Assembly: GCA_024280295.1 (NCBI GenBank)
Contig: JAJRQK010000024.1
Coordinates: 1-32,815 of the forward strand
Origin: Bacteroidota bacterium
GTDB lineage: Bacteria > Bacteroidota > Bacteroidia > Flavobacteriales_D > Crocinitomicaceae
Direction of reading: 5' to 3'
Length of the DNA: 32,815 bases
Shown: one piece after another, positions 27,664 through 32,815 of the stretch
Position numbering within the stretch: the first letter of the stretch is position 1
How the letters are laid out: the number at the start of each line of letters is the position of its first letter
The notes under the pieces: generated by a model
Databases searched by the model: none
The model's input: only the letters and a program-made list of their open reading frames with translations
What the model was told of the DNA's origin: nothing
Position numbers and translations under genes: made by a program

Positions 27664-27736
27664 CGAACGTTCGCAAAACAAATCCACTATTTGGTACAGA
27701 CGATAAGGTTTGGTATACCGAATTTCATCATTTTTG
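27664..27736 (+). promoter_or_regulatory. Upstream region of the sensor kinase: palindrome CGAACGTTCG, single TTCGCAAAAC box, weak promoter
   Basis: CGAACGTTCG (27664-27673) overlaps TTCGCAAAAC (27670-27679), the same word as in the LytTR-type boxes further right, here without a good second copy 21 bp away. A candidate promoter follows: TTG 27710-27712, 16 bp, CATTTTTG 27729-27736. The kinase starts 13 bp later. Confidence 0.4.
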
Positions 27737-27748
27737 TGATAGTTAAAT

Positions 27749-30652
27749 TTGAAAGTATATTATCACATAGCGCGATTATTCTGTGTATTCATTTTTTGTG
27801 CATCGCTTTTCCATAGTTACGCTCAACAATCATCTCATTTTTATTTAGGTTCCGACGAATTCGCTAATCGTCATATTTACTCATTGATTCATCATTCAGA
27901 TAAATTACTCTATGTTGGAACTAACGATGGCCTATTAGTCTATAAGAATGGGGCTTTTGAAACAATAAAACCTGCTCCAGGGCAAATTGGTAATTCGATT
28001 TTTTCATTAGTAGGCAATAGTAAAGGAGTCCTGCATTGTGCGAATTTGTCAGGTCAGCTATTTAAAGTTATAGACGGTCGACTTGTCTATCTAGACCAAT
28101 TACCTCCTGAATTCTTAGGCTCAGGTGTTATGTTTACGTTTGATGCAAATGACATATTGATCGTTGTTTCTGATGGTATAGTCAAGCGTCAAGACGACCA
28201 ATGGCAAAGAATATATAACCCAAGTACTCAATTTCAATTTCAAGTAAATCCTTTTGATCGATCCAATATTTTGACGTCAGATTCATCAAATGCACAAATA
28301 ATATGTCTTCAGAATGGAGCTTTTGGTCCTGAGGTTATGCTTCCCACGGAGTTTATTGGTTTTAGTAGTTCCTTCTTTTCGGGCAGACTAAATGGTGATT
28401 TAATTTCTATGAATAACCAAGGAACCATCTATAAGCATGAAGATAAACAAATTGAATATTTGAAGGGACTTAACGTACGAGAGTACATTCAAGTGGATGA
28501 TAATCAAATCTGGGCACTTGATCAGACGCGTGGACTTCAATTAATTTCAATGAAAAATAAGGAGCTAAATCTTGGCGCTTTATTGTTCGAATCAGAATTC
28601 ATTTCTTCCATTTCCAGATCTAACAATGGGACAATTTTTCTTGGTACGTTTAATCACGGGATTGTTGTAATTCCAAATATTGACAGTGATGTAACTTTTA
28701 TTGAGAATCGATATTTGGCAAGTATATGTGCTACTTCGTCAGCAATTGTGGCGTTGGATAATTCAGGATCAATCTATGCGATTTCTGACAATGAGCTCAC
28801 ATTATATAAAGAGAAGGCATCTTATGAAAGAGGTAATGTGATGAGCTTTCCTGGAGTCAATTTCGGGATTGATCCAAATCAGAAATCGCTTATATATGAT
28901 TTTCAACTTGGTAAAATAAAAACGCTTATAGGCGTATTAAAAGATGGCGTTCAAATCGATGAGACAACTGCAATATTAGCAACATCTAAAGGTTTATTTC
29001 GTAAAGGAGAAGGCGCCAATCAGCTTAATTGGATTGATTGTTTTAATGGTTTTAATGATTTTAATGGTTGGTCAAGACTCTCTCCAAAGAGTTACCGCGC
29101 TAGAGCTGTTACATTTGACACGAAGAATCACGATCTATATTATTCAACTCAAAAAGAACTTAGACAACTAAATGCGAAGGGGCAATTAGATGTAATCAAA
29201 ATTGATGGAGAAGATATTGCCTGCAACGACTTGATTTACAAGAATGGCTTCGTTTGGTGTGCCACTCAGAAATATGGTATTCTCAAGATTAAAAATGGAA
29301 AGATTGTTAAGAAAATATCAATCGATCATGGACTTGGAAATGCTTATGTTTTTAAAATTGAGTTTTATGATGCAAAACTCTTCATCTCTCATAGGAGTGG
29401 ATTTCAGATTTACAACGAAAGCAACCATCGCTGGAAATCAATTGGAACAGCAGAAGGTGTAAAAAATGGATCGGTCAGAAGTTTTACATTTCATAATTCC
29501 AAACTTTATGTCCTTTCCAGAGGAAAGCTAATTTCTCTTCCATTAGATCAACTTGAAAAGAAACCAGATTACGTACTACATATCCCACTCGTTAAATTAG
29601 GTTCTTTTGAGTTGAAAGAAGGCCGAGAGTCGAGTTATTCGTATGGACAGAACCACTTAATAGTAAAATTTGATTTTAGAGGAATTGAATTTGAATCTGA
29701 AGCAAGAATCCAATATCGACTTATTGGACTAAGTGATAAGTGGAAGGAAATGGTATCTACGACTTCAGAAGTTGAATTTAACGCGCTCGCCGCTGGTGAA
29801 TACGAATTACAAATTCGAACAAAATATCGATCAGTAATAACTGAAAGTCAATGTTACCCATTCAATGTTACTCCACCTTTCTGGCAGACAATCGGGTTTT
29901 ATATGTTAATCGTCTTTTTCACAATAGTTGTCTTAGTTGTGTTCTTCCGATTTCGATTGAAAAGAAGTCGAATTGAACAAAAAAGAGCATTGGATAGGCA
30001 AAAAATGCAGACCGATTTATTTGAATCCGAATTAAAAGCGCTTCGTTCACAGATGAATCCACATTTTATTTTCAACTCTCTAAACTCTATTCAAGCGTTG
30101 GTTTTGAAGGAGGATACAGAGAGTTCGTATGACTATATCACACTTTTCGCCAAATTAGTGCGTAATACGCTTAATTATTCGAACCGTGAATTTATACCCA
30201 TAGAGAGTGAATTGGAATTTCTCGAAGTTTATCTTTCCCTTGAGAAGTTACGATTTGGCGACAGTTTTAATTACGAAATTGTGTTTGATGGAGACAAGAA
30301 CATTGATGTCCCATCACTTTTAGTTCAACCATTTATTGAGAACGCTTTGGTACATGGCTTAATGCATCGTAAGGGATTGAAAGAGCTATCAATCAGATTT
30401 GAATTAACAGACCTATTGACCTGCACAATTATAGATAATGGCATTGGAAGAGAGAAGTCTAGAGAAATCCAAAAACGAAGAAATGGTGATCATGAATCTT
30501 TTGCATTATCTGCAATAGAGCAACGAATGAATCTACTTAATAAACAACTCGGTGATCAGGTTGGGAGCTATAAAATTGAAGATCTTTATAAAGATACTGT
30601 TGCTACGGGAACAAAAGTAAAAATTGTCATACCTTTTATACCACATTATTGA
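27749..30652 (+). CDS. LytS/YehU-type sensor histidine kinase with extracytoplasmic beta-propeller and Y_Y_Y domain
   Basis: 967 residues. The start is TTG 27749: a TAG lies 9 bp upstream in frame and no other initiator precedes the signal peptide (LFCVFIFCASLFHSYAQQ). Residues about 25-620 form a propeller-like series of Reg_prop-type repeats ('IYSLIHHSDKLLYVGTNDGL', 'GTIFLGTFNHGIVVI', 'GFVWCATQKYGILKIKNG'), then a Y_Y_Y-like beta domain ('IQYRLIGLSDKWKE...LAAGEYELQIRT'), a transmembrane helix at about 711-735, and a His_kinase domain of the LytS class with phospho-acceptor His 772 in 'NPHFIFNSLNS', an N-box 'QPFIENALVHGL' and a G-box 'DNGIGREKS'. The partner is the LytTR regulator 70 bp downstream. 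The propeller suggests sensing of an external ligand, in other members often a glycan. Confidence 0.93.
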   Translation: MKVYYHIARLFCVFIFCASLFHSYAQQSSHFYLGSDEFANRHIYSLIHHSDKLLYVGTNDGLLVYKNGAFETIKPAPGQIGNSIFSLVGNSKGVLHCANLSGQLFKVIDGRLVYLDQLPPEFLGSGVMFTFDANDILIVVSDGIVKRQDDQWQRIYNPSTQFQFQVNPFDRSNILTSDSSNAQIICLQNGAFGPEVMLPTEFIGFSSSFFSGRLNGDLISMNNQGTIYKHEDKQIEYLKGLNVREYIQVDDNQIWALDQTRGLQLISMKNKELNLGALLFESEFISSISRSNNGTIFLGTFNHGIVVIPNIDSDVTFIENRYLASICATSSAIVALDNSGSIYAISDNELTLYKEKASYERGNVMSFPGVNFGIDPNQKSLIYDFQLGKIKTLIGVLKDGVQIDETTAILATSKGLFRKGEGANQLNWIDCFNGFNDFNGWSRLSPKSYRARAVTFDTKNHDLYYSTQKELRQLNAKGQLDVIKIDGEDIACNDLIYKNGFVWCATQKYGILKIKNGKIVKKISIDHGLGNAYVFKIEFYDAKLFISHRSGFQIYNESNHRWKSIGTAEGVKNGSVRSFTFHNSKLYVLSRGKLISLPLDQLEKKPDYVLHIPLVKLGSFELKEGRESSYSYGQNHLIVKFDFRGIEFESEARIQYRLIGLSDKWKEMVSTTSEVEFNALAAGEYELQIRTKYRSVITESQCYPFNVTPPFWQTIGFYMLIVFFTIVVLVVFFRFRLKRSRIEQKRALDRQKMQTDLFESELKALRSQMNPHFIFNSLNSIQALVLKEDTESSYDYITLFAKLVRNTLNYSNREFIPIESELEFLEVYLSLEKLRFGDSFNYEIVFDGDKNIDVPSLLVQPFIENALVHGLMHRKGLKELSIRFELTDLLTCTIIDNGIGREKSREIQKRRNGDHESFALSAIEQRMNLLNKQLGDQVGSYKIEDLYKDTVATGTKVKIVIPFIPHY

Positions 30653-30718
30653 TTCGCAAAATGAAACCCTAGTTGCGCAAAATGAATTTAATCAATACAA
30701 AAATTCTTAGTTGATTTG
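30653..30718 (+). promoter_or_regulatory. LytTR-type direct repeats and -7 box before the response regulator
   Basis: TTCGCAAAAT at 30653 and TGCGCAAAAT at 30674 are 21 bp apart, and TTGATTTG (one change from TAnnTTTG) starts at 30711, 37 bp after the second repeat. The first repeat begins directly after the kinase stop codon. The ATG at 30723 is 4 bp after the -7 box. Confidence 0.6.
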
Positions 30719-30722
30719 AAAG

Positions 30723-31481
30723 ATGGAAAAATTGAGAATCATACTTGTTGACGACGAAGACTTAGCATTGGATGTGCTGACGAATTTAATCTGTCGATCA
30801 AGCACTCCTGTTGATATTGTTGCCACATGTAATGATGTTCTTGAAGCAGTGAATAAAATTAATGAATTGAAGCCTGATGTTGTTTTCTTGGATGTTCAGA
30901 TGCCAGATTACGCGGGATATGAGATTGTTAATTTCTTTGATGAAATCAATTTTGAAATAATATTTGTTACAGCTTATGACCAATATGCAATTAAAGCGTT
31001 TGAATTAAGTGCGATTGATTATATAGTAAAACCTGTTGAACGTTATAGACTGGAAGAGGCACTCCAAAAAGTGATGGAGAAGCGCGAACAGATTGCTGTA
31101 AAGGAGAATTATCAAGTACTTCTAGACTCTATGCGCGGTAAAGAATTGGGGAAAATCATTCTTCCAGAAATAACGGATGGACAATTAAGTCGTCGCGTTC
31201 TTCACTTTAAAGATATCATTGCAGTTGAAGCAATGCGGTCTTATTGTCAGATTCATTTAAAAGACGAGTCTCCTTTTTTAATCAGCAGAAATTTAAAGTA
31301 TTTTGAATCGCTACTACCTGAAAAGCACACGTTTTTTAGATCTCACAGGTCATGGATTTTAAACCTAGATTATGTTGAGAAGTATTACCGAAAATCTGAT
31401 GAAGTGGGTATGGGTAAAGATATTGTTGCAAAAGTTTCGAAGAACCGATTGAGTCTCTTTGAGGAACAAACAACAACCTAG
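30723..31481 (+). CDS. LytTR-family response regulator
   Basis: 252 residues. Receiver domain 1-120: acidic pocket D10, D11 and E12, phospho-acceptor D57 in 'VVFLDVQMP', T82 in 'FVTAYD', K102 in 'VKPVERY'. A linker follows, then a LytTR DNA-binding domain at about 145-250 ('RRVLHFKDIIAVEAMRSYCQ', 'LPEKHTFFRSHRSWILNLDY'). LytTR proteins bind two short direct repeats about two helical turns apart. Exactly such repeats occur before this gene and before the two LRR genes, so autoregulation and control of the LRR genes is the simplest reading (inference). It is cognate to the kinase directly upstream. Confidence 0.94.
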   Translation: MEKLRIILVDDEDLALDVLTNLICRSSTPVDIVATCNDVLEAVNKINELKPDVVFLDVQMPDYAGYEIVNFFDEINFEIIFVTAYDQYAIKAFELSAIDYIVKPVERYRLEEALQKVMEKREQIAVKENYQVLLDSMRGKELGKIILPEITDGQLSRRVLHFKDIIAVEAMRSYCQIHLKDESPFLISRNLKYFESLLPEKHTFFRSHRSWILNLDYVEKYYRKSDEVGMGKDIVAKVSKNRLSLFEEQTTT

Positions 31482-31486
31482 CTAGT

Positions 31487-31624
31487 CGTTCGCAAGAATA
31501 ATTCCGCCCTTCGCAAAACGCATTATTTTCATCCTTCCAATTGCTTTAATCTTGTATCAACTAATTTAAAACAGATGATATGAAAAGAATGATACTCTTA
31601 CTTCTCTTGGGAAGTGCAACAATG
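31487..31624 (+). repeat. Tandem-duplicated gene start unit, copy 1 (operator, promoter, leader, signal peptide)
   Basis: It matches 32678-32815 with no length change between the operator and the ATG (93 bp in both). The operator core, the last part of the leader and all 45 visible coding bases are identical; the stretch between operator and -7 box is diverged. Confidence 0.85.
31489..31554 (+). promoter_or_regulatory. LytTR-type direct repeats and -7 box before the first LRR gene
   Basis: TTCGCAA at 31489 and 31510 (21 bp apart); TAATCTTG, a one-mismatch -7 box, starts at 31547, 37 bp after the second repeat. No TTG at -33, as expected for an activator-dependent promoter. Confidence 0.65.
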
Positions 31625-32620
31625 ACAAATGCACAAATTGTGAATATTCCTGATGCCAATTTTAAAGCTTATTTGGTGGGTAACGCGTTAATTAACACGA
31701 ATGCGGATGCAGAAATACAAGTAAGTGAAGCGAACGGGTTTGCAGGATCAATTTACTGCCATAGTTTATCAATTTTAAACTTTACAGGAATTGAAGCATT
31801 TATTCTCTTAGATAGTTTAACATGTAGCGGGAACTCATTGTCTACAATAGATTTATCTAGTAATACTTCATTAAGATACCTGTATTGCGTTGGGAATTCA
31901 TGGACTTCGTTGGACGTTAGTAATAATGCTGCACTAACTTACTTGAATTGCGCCGCTAATTCATTAACGACTCTTGATGTAAGCAATAATACATTATTAA
32001 CATCATTGGTTTTTACAGGAAATTCCCTATCGGCAATTGATATTACTAATAATTCGTCATTACTGACATTAGGTTGTAGCAATAACTTACTTAGCTCTAT
32101 AGATGTGAGTAATAATTTGTTGTTGAGATATTTAATATGCAGGAATAATTCTTTAAGTATCTTTGATTTAAGTAATCATAGTGATTTATTTTGGTTTGAT
32201 GCGGATGACAATAATTTTGCAGACTTAAATATTGCTAATGCAAATAATATTAATTTTTTAACCTTCTCTATTACTGGTAATCCTAATTTAAGCTGCATTG
32301 AAGTAGATGATGTTGCCTACAGCACCACTAACTGGCTGGGCATCGATGCAACCACAAGTTTTAGTACAAATTGCAATGGAGCAAGTATTGATGAACTAGG
32401 TTCAATTACTGTTAATGTATTCCCCAATCCAACATCTTCATCACTCACCATTGAGTCTTCAGAAAACATAGAATCAGTTGCCATATACAACACGCTCGGT
32501 CAATTAGTTCAACAAGAATTCACAACGTATTTTTCAGTAGAAAATCTTCCAACTGGAATCTATATGATCCATGCGGAAACAGAAATCGGAATTATCCGAA
32601 GTCGATTTGTAAAAGAGTAG
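31580..32620 (+). CDS. Secreted leucine-rich-repeat protein with T9SS type A sorting domain
   Basis: 346 residues. Signal peptide MKRMILLLLLGSATMTNAQ, then an N-terminal cap 'VNIPDANFKAYLVGN', and about seven 21-residue leucine-rich repeats (pattern L-x-x-L-x-C-x-x-N-x-L-x-x-I/L-D-V-S-N-N) at about 75-222. A short beta segment follows, and a sorting domain with 'VNVFPNPTSSSLTI' and 'LPTGIYMIHA'. LRR solenoids of this type bind proteins or glycans; the protein should end up on the surface or outside. It follows the response regulator by 98 bp under its own promoter with LytTR-type boxes. A second copy of the gene start follows 150 bp after its stop, so it is one member of a tandem family. Confidence 0.9.
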   Translation: MKRMILLLLLGSATMTNAQIVNIPDANFKAYLVGNALINTNADAEIQVSEANGFAGSIYCHSLSILNFTGIEAFILLDSLTCSGNSLSTIDLSSNTSLRYLYCVGNSWTSLDVSNNAALTYLNCAANSLTTLDVSNNTLLTSLVFTGNSLSAIDITNNSSLLTLGCSNNLLSSIDVSNNLLLRYLICRNNSLSIFDLSNHSDLFWFDADDNNFADLNIANANNINFLTFSITGNPNLSCIEVDDVAYSTTNWLGIDATTSFSTNCNGASIDELGSITVNVFPNPTSSSLTIESSENIESVAIYNTLGQLVQQEFTTYFSVENLPTGIYMIHAETEIGIIRSRFVKE

Positions 32621-32642
32621 CGTAGTTTTTCATATAAGGGAG

Positions 32643-32677
32643 CCGGTTTTCGTCTTAGGATGGAGGTCGGTTTTTTT
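32643..32677 (+). terminator. Probable terminator of the first LRR gene
   Basis: Stem CCGGTTTTC / GGAGGTCGG (nine pairs, several G-T), 10-nt loop, then TTTTTTT. It ends directly before the next operator and separates the two LRR transcription units. Confidence 0.65.
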
Positions 32678-32679
32678 CG

Positions 32680-32745
32680 TTCGCAAGAATAATCCTATCC
32701 TTCGCAAAACGCAATTTTCTAATTTTTGAAGATGTCTTATTCTTG
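32680..32745 (+). promoter_or_regulatory. LytTR-type direct repeats and -7 box before the second LRR gene
   Basis: TTCGCAA at 32680 and 32701 (21 bp apart); TATTCTTG starts at 32738, 37 bp after the second repeat, the same geometry as the first copy. Confidence 0.65.
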
Positions 32746-32770: not shown

Positions 32771-32815
32771 ATGAAAAGAATGATACTCTTACTTCTCTTG
32801 GGAAGTGCAACAATG
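32771..32815 (+). CDS. Start of a second LRR/T9SS-type gene (3' end outside window)
   Basis: Only 15 codons are visible (MKRMILLLLLGSATM). They are identical at the DNA level to the first 45 bp of the LRR gene at 31580, and the leader and operator are also duplicated. By analogy it encodes a paralogous secreted LRR protein; the repeats and sorting domain cannot be seen. Confidence 0.7.
   Translation, partial: MKRMILLLLLGSATM

Follow-up and report, generated by a model that had tools for sequence, protein, structure and literature searches.

The stated consensus for LytTR operators is a pair of 9-bp repeats separated by 12 bp (PMC2766830), and in the LRS of Streptococcus mutans and its relatives, such as HdrRM and BrsRM, 9-bp direct repeats mostly lie 12 bp apart (PMC6193735). 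For Bacteroides, a presumed ‘LRS-like’ operon has been presented with TCCGGTATTCA and ACCGGAAATCA separated by 11 bp, followed after another 11 bp by TGTA, 19 bp and TATCTTTG (PMC6193735 Table 3). AgrA of Staphylococcus aureus binds as a dimer to two direct repeats (PMC4227749; structure 3bs1), and the repeats of streptococcal SilA are 10 bp long with 11 bp between them, both being needed for activation (PMC2766830). In the open-licence LytTR literature that we searched, we found no description of the operator of a Bacteroidota LytTR response regulator, and none of TTCGCAA as an operator word.

Here we describe a locus of a Bacteroidota bacterium at which TTCGCAA-like direct repeats precede the gene of a LytTR response regulator and two LRR genes. 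From the sequence, we read these repeats as the activating, autoregulatory operator of the adjoining regulator, which would drive LRR genes for T9SS export, and we give this reading a probability of roughly 0.83. The window, i.e. the whole stretch of DNA that was analysed, is the entire contig C35 (32,815 bp) of an assembly of 3.46 Mb in 74 contigs that is 98.8% complete. Its relevant features are the following:

27670..27736, + strand: possible weak kinase operator-promoter (TTCGCAA at 27670, TTGGTAC at 27691, box CATTTTTG at 27729)
27749..30652, + strand: sensor kinase, 967 aa, with His_kinase, Y_Y_Y and weak Reg_prop (profile matches)
30653..30659, + strand: regulator promoter, upstream half-site TTCGCAA
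30674..30680, + strand: regulator promoter, downstream half-site TGCGCAA
30711..30718, + strand: regulator promoter, -7 box TTGATTTG
30723..31481, + strand: LytTR response regulator, 252 aa (profile matches)
31489..31495, + strand: LRR1 promoter, upstream half-site TTCGCAA
31510..31516, + strand: LRR1 promoter, downstream half-site TTCGCAA
31547..31554, + strand: LRR1 promoter, -7 box TAATCTTG
31580..32620, + strand: LRR1, 346 aa, LRR protein with a T9SS sorting domain (profile matches)
32680..32686, + strand: LRR2 promoter, upstream half-site TTCGCAA
32701..32707, + strand: LRR2 promoter, downstream half-site TTCGCAA
32738..32745, + strand: LRR2 promoter, -7 box TATTCTTG
32771..32815, + strand: start of LRR2, truncated by the contig end (continuation on contig C3)

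The gene assignments largely agree with what had been predicted from the DNA alone. Both domains of the regulator exceed their curated cut-offs (receiver domain PF00072, 73.9 bits against 30.2; DNA-binding domain PF04397, 52.7 bits against 22.6, 5.2e-14), which makes it a LytTR-type response regulator, as expected for this cluster, and the profile of its LytTR domain matches the AgrA structure 3bs1 (E 1.4e-6). The gene predicted to encode a beta-propeller kinase is a kinase by its His_kinase domain; the beta-propeller part is weak, with Reg_prop at 19.6 bits, below the cut-off of 20.4. LRR1 carries a C-terminal sorting domain recognized by PF18962 (46.9 bits) and TIGR04183 (43.6 bits) and thus qualifies as T9SS cargo. 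LRR1 also scores 101 bits with the internalin J model, whose cut-off is 1700, a match that probably reflects merely the common LRR repeats.

At the end of the window, the start region of LRR2 is identical to the first 79 bases of the reversed contig C3, on which a 365-aa LRR gene with a sorting domain (PF18962, 42.2 bits) is followed by a 318-aa gene and then by a DUF1456 gene. The junction of C35 and C3 that this overlap suggests is drawn from the assembly, and additional LRR copies may have collapsed at it. Three contig ends lie in or beside LRR genes of the LRR1/LRR2 type (C35:32815, C3:11469 and C40:264480), so that the LRR arrays are probably longer than assembled and partly collapsed. 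The ‘growing set’ of T9SS-secreted LRR proteins that had been envisaged stands at two LRR genes, and the secreted-looking 318-aa gene that follows them has no operator visible on inspection of its sequence by eye. A family of secreted-looking proteins, each about 320 aa long, recurs in the cassettes, with IEGxxG near the N-terminus and a K-rich centre, and two members scanned against Pfam and NCBIfam matched no model. Members of this family are located at:

L067:9348-10304, - strand
L068:9979-10977, + strand
L075:6635-7437, + strand
L083:2703-3653, - strand

The geometry of the three promoters is exact to the base, as originally claimed: in 3/3 the repeats are 21 bp apart and the second repeat lies 37 bp before the box. 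Each of the three predicted boxes agrees at five of six positions with TAnnTTTG, the -7 element of Bacteroidota sigma-A promoters, and no TTTG ends 16–22 bp before the box at the regulator, LRR1 or LRR2 promoter, in keeping with the claim that a -33 element is lacking. As 7-mers with a period of 21 bp in all three promoters, the repeats have the format of LytTR operators (direct repeats of ~9 bp with 11–13 bp between them, period ~21), and one pair stands directly upstream of the regulator’s own predicted promoter (30653–30718, ATG at 30723). Such similarity could also be a copying artefact of tandem LRR duplication, combined with a chance site at the regulator. The LRR1 and LRR2 promoters, with 28/44 non-motif columns identical in an ungapped comparison, are indeed probably duplicates, and together they count as about one independent case. 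The regulator promoter, however, shares 13/14 repeat bases with the LRR promoters but 17/44 of the other columns, and on this comparison it is an independent case of the motif; in addition, multi-promoter loci of relatives have the identical frame (G075 C5, G131 C61), and we find the copying explanation hardly credible.

A further candidate lies upstream of the kinase gene, with an offset of 38 and a second repeat that matches at only 4/7 positions. With three mismatches allowed, the window holds six matches where 5.3 are expected, and because this tier is at chance level the site has to be considered weak. The site may be a degenerate operator at the kinase promoter; by itself, it is not significant.

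Within the assembly, the motif is close to unique to these promoters. The exact pair occurs twice in the window and never in 100 dinucleotide shuffles, and over the whole 3.46 Mb it is found only at the LRR1 and LRR2 promoters. When up to one mismatch is allowed there are four places, namely these two, the regulator promoter, whose pair is one base off the exact one, and a place on contig C29 within an open reading frame. The whole-assembly scan that the original prediction had proposed thus returned its promoters as three of the four best places; it gave no general excess at up to two mismatches, where 44 matches compare with the 34 of a reversed pattern used as control. Occurrence at random, unconnected with LytTR or LRR genes, had been named beforehand as an outcome that would count against the prediction; it was tested for and not seen. 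A wide TTCGCAA regulon in this assembly is rejected, as a half-site plus box at up to one mismatch occurs 41 times against 34 for the reversed control, which is chance. Four off-locus pairs were examined, on C29 (one mismatch) and C12 of this assembly and, as exact matches, in G173 and G107, and all (4/4) fall within open reading frames; that on C12 matches the word of the C51 type. Nor is the exact TTCGCAA pair a genus-wide operator, as it occurs in 3/34 genomes of the genus and, in the two other than our own, inside reading frames.

Relatives keep the layout with other words, so that it has the appearance of a private, self-regulated switch controlling exported proteins. Matches to the regulator were found in 195/200 genomes of the family that were searched (E up to 1e-20). 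Among the 20 related stretches listed, 17 have kinase and regulator matches, whichever comes first, and in 16 the two are adjacent; of these 17, 11 also hold a gene matching an LRR, LamG or sorting-domain query, and three hold a homologue of the 318-aa protein. The sample was widened by 40 stretches around regulators 37–50% identical to that of the window, and by 80 named loci. Over 437 regions from 119 LytTR loci, a count that leaves out the window and keeps duplicate regions in, the combination of spacing 21 and offset 37 was the top of 546 cells, with 28 against a mean of 4.9 (sd 3.1). Once duplicates are removed, the maximum for the 80 distant loci (274 regions) falls at exactly 21/37, with 19 against a mean of 3.7. 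The 54 close loci (224 regions; mean 2.3) have a broader peak that covers both spacing 20 and spacing 21 (15 at 20/39 and 20/36, 13 at 21/35 and 21/34 and 12 at 21/37), which makes spacing 20 a second form; TTGCTGA and TTCCTGA are among its words. The period at the relatives’ LytTR loci is 20–21. Our strict test for a pair was passed by only 37/227 regions (55 close loci, window included), part of them probably by chance; most cassette promoters fail it, and in the paralogous C40 cassette no pair passes. In the closest relative, whose regulator is 62% identical, CTCGTAA/TCCGTAA stands at -70/-49 relative to the regulator start codon, the positions seen in the window. Among more distant records, TTCAGAA-like pairs in the 21/37 frame stand at kinase or neighbouring promoters (L106, L113, L120, L122), which suggests a wider operator form. 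At L201, L224 and L225, a conserved TATCATA/TATGATA pair 20 bp apart stands before an unannotated gene near the regulator; its second copy is the reverse complement of the first, and it looks like a different kind of site.

The frame was then compared with promoters of a far set, made up of twenty 20-kb stretches from our own and six related genomes plus the remainder of the window; a single regulator match (1.8e-7) and several to sorting-domain or LRR models occur in this set, all of them weak. The 21/37 frame was present at 9/42 secreted genes, 6/87 kinases, 4/67 regulators and 10/125 other contiguous genes. The four cassette sets together reach 29/321 against 1/196 in promoters elsewhere (Fisher 6.7e-7 for secreted genes and 7.6e-6 for the four sets, with promoters of related genomes treated as independent). 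Nearby genes, under the identical rule, gave 16/371 (Fisher 0.0067 against the far set, related genomes again treated as independent). In an earlier comparison, other genes in LytTR stretches (16/367) and cassette genes (31/492) had nearly equal rates; nearby genes are probably contaminated by targets as a control set, and the far stretches were substituted for them. Matches at spacing 20 or 21 and offset 36–38 number 43/367 among nearby genes; some have signal-peptide-like starts and good pairs (L202, L188, L103), and many look like chance. Some nearby secreted-looking genes may be targets, on an after-the-fact reading. These rates support a tie of the 21/37 frame to LytTR loci and not to promoters elsewhere and, with the repeats in the relatives’ kinase-regulator spacers, they favour the LytTR-operator reading originally put forward. 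It is conceivable that another DNA-binding protein, which happens to control the locus, binds the repeats, as it is sequence that assigns them to the LytTR regulator. That the frame follows LytTR loci over many genomes and is at background level elsewhere, and that the stated LytTR format has 9-bp repeats with 12 bp between (PMC2766830, PMC6193735), makes such a protein very unlikely, and we keep to the LytTR regulator.

The kinase stands before the regulator at 101 loci, with a spacer of 55–110 bp in 36; these 36 range from 59 to 103 bp, and 29 of them measure 65–80 bp. Comparing the upstream regions of regulator orthologues, as had been recommended, revealed 21-bp-spaced 8-mer repeats (at least 7/8) in a third (33%) of the 36 spacers, against 2% of the 65 other-gap loci and 3% of shuffles. 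A motif fit to the 36 spacers and the window returned the half-site CYATTSMTRAA at 15.6 per sequence, with shuffles at 8.1–8.8 and a control on kinase-end coding sequence at 14.1, a score that hardly separates the motif from homologous coding sequence. In 14/36 spacers, exactly 4 nt separate the -7 box from the start codon, and in 17/36 the gap is 4–5 nt; a box of 5/6 ending 3–6 nt before the start is found in only 18/36. The -7 box spans -12 to -5 (PMC6847099), so that transcription would begin at the start codon; the predicted start in the window is 30723, the A of ATG. The regulator mRNA is thus predicted to be leaderless, which we consider probable. In Flavobacterium psychrophilum, 5.5% of the mRNAs examined were leaderless (PMC9723704).

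Under the proposed mechanism, the upstream kinase, as the likely input, would phosphorylate the regulator in a presumed phosphorelay, and a dimer of the phosphorylated regulator would bind the two direct half-sites, which are two helical turns apart on one DNA face. The bound sites would end ~30 bp before the -7 box of a sigma-A promoter that has no -33 element, at which the dimer would recruit or position RNA polymerase. In this way, the regulator would activate its own gene in a positive feedback, through a predicted leaderless mRNA, and also the adjoining LRR genes, whose proteins would be exported by T9SS. Surface recognition or adhesion would fit the LRR and LamG cargo. The sign of regulation is not readable from sequence, and on the same LytTR operator the regulator might instead repress these promoters or act as its own negative feedback; AgrA is reported to repress bsaA, with a site just downstream of the bsaA promoter (PMC4227749). 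The sites described here, in contrast, precede a -7 box that has no -33 element, a layout resembling that of the activating LytTR repeats (PMC6193735), and we consider repression unlikely and activation the preferred reading.

Half-site words tend to be re-used within a locus. Recurrence was seen in 23/123 within-locus comparisons (window excluded), while 1000 permutations of loci gave a mean of 4.3% and a largest value of 12.3%. For example, TTCGGAA/TTGGGAA is present at three promoters of G075 C5, and CTCACAA/CCCACAA at two of G131 C61. At the paralogue on C51, the 332-aa gene has CTGGTAA/CTAGTAA, the regulator CAGCTAA/TTGGTAA (offset 38), and the LamG gene a single TTGGTAA 37 bp before TACTATTG (by eye). 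A clean rule between half-site word and recognition residue was sought by eye and not found. Where the regulator has HRS at the position of AgrA-N201 (for example in the window, G183, G131 C61 and G075), the words depart from CYATTSMTRAA, a consensus that is commoner with HKS regulators (both by eye); two further HRS regulators, those of C40 and G131 C59, lack a strict pair. We offer, as a tentative and rather doubtful proposal, that kinase-LytTR-exported-protein cassettes have multiplied in Bacteroidota into parallel private circuits, in which regulator and word drift together within a rigid frame, with a half-site period of 20–21 bp, an offset of 37 bp to the -7 box and a leaderless mRNA for the regulator. 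If true, a single cell would have insulated switches for its different surface proteins; as C40 has no strict pair and the words of some loci are alike, full insulation stays at the level of a proposal. With a fixed frame, targets could be predicted for each locus separately (here T9SS-exported proteins), and the paralogous regulators with their operator words form a natural set for learning how the LytTR domain reads DNA.

With the LRS, this locus has in common a conserved place upstream of the promoter, autoregulation and poorly conserved repeat words (PMC6193735). In the LRS, however, a LytTR regulator is paired with an inhibitory membrane protein in place of a kinase (PMC6193735), whereas here the regulator has a receiver domain and a His_kinase gene precedes it; unlike in the LRS of Streptococcus mutans, the promoter here belongs to the -7 type of Bacteroidota. 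The Bacteroides ‘LRS-like’ systems are similar in that direct repeats precede the promoter, of the TAnnTTTG type, of a LytTR operon, and differ in their transmembrane LytTR proteins, a period of 22, other words and an assigned -33 element (PMC6193735). Their passages in PMC6193735 name no secreted targets, whereas here the LRR genes encode a T9SS domain. AgrA differs in that its proximal repeat lies at about -60 (PMC4227749), and its N201 is K or R in the 16 aligned regulators. Streptococcal SilA resembles our regulator as a kinase-coupled LytTR regulator with two direct repeats, but its input is peptide quorum sensing (PMC2766830). The original prediction knew of no description of this operator. 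For the word, we likewise found none in the open-licence literature; the architecture, a general design of fixed geometry, free words and autoregulation, is already known from other LytTR systems (PMC6193735). Here, that design comes with T9SS-exported proteins as predicted targets and a probable leaderless regulator mRNA.
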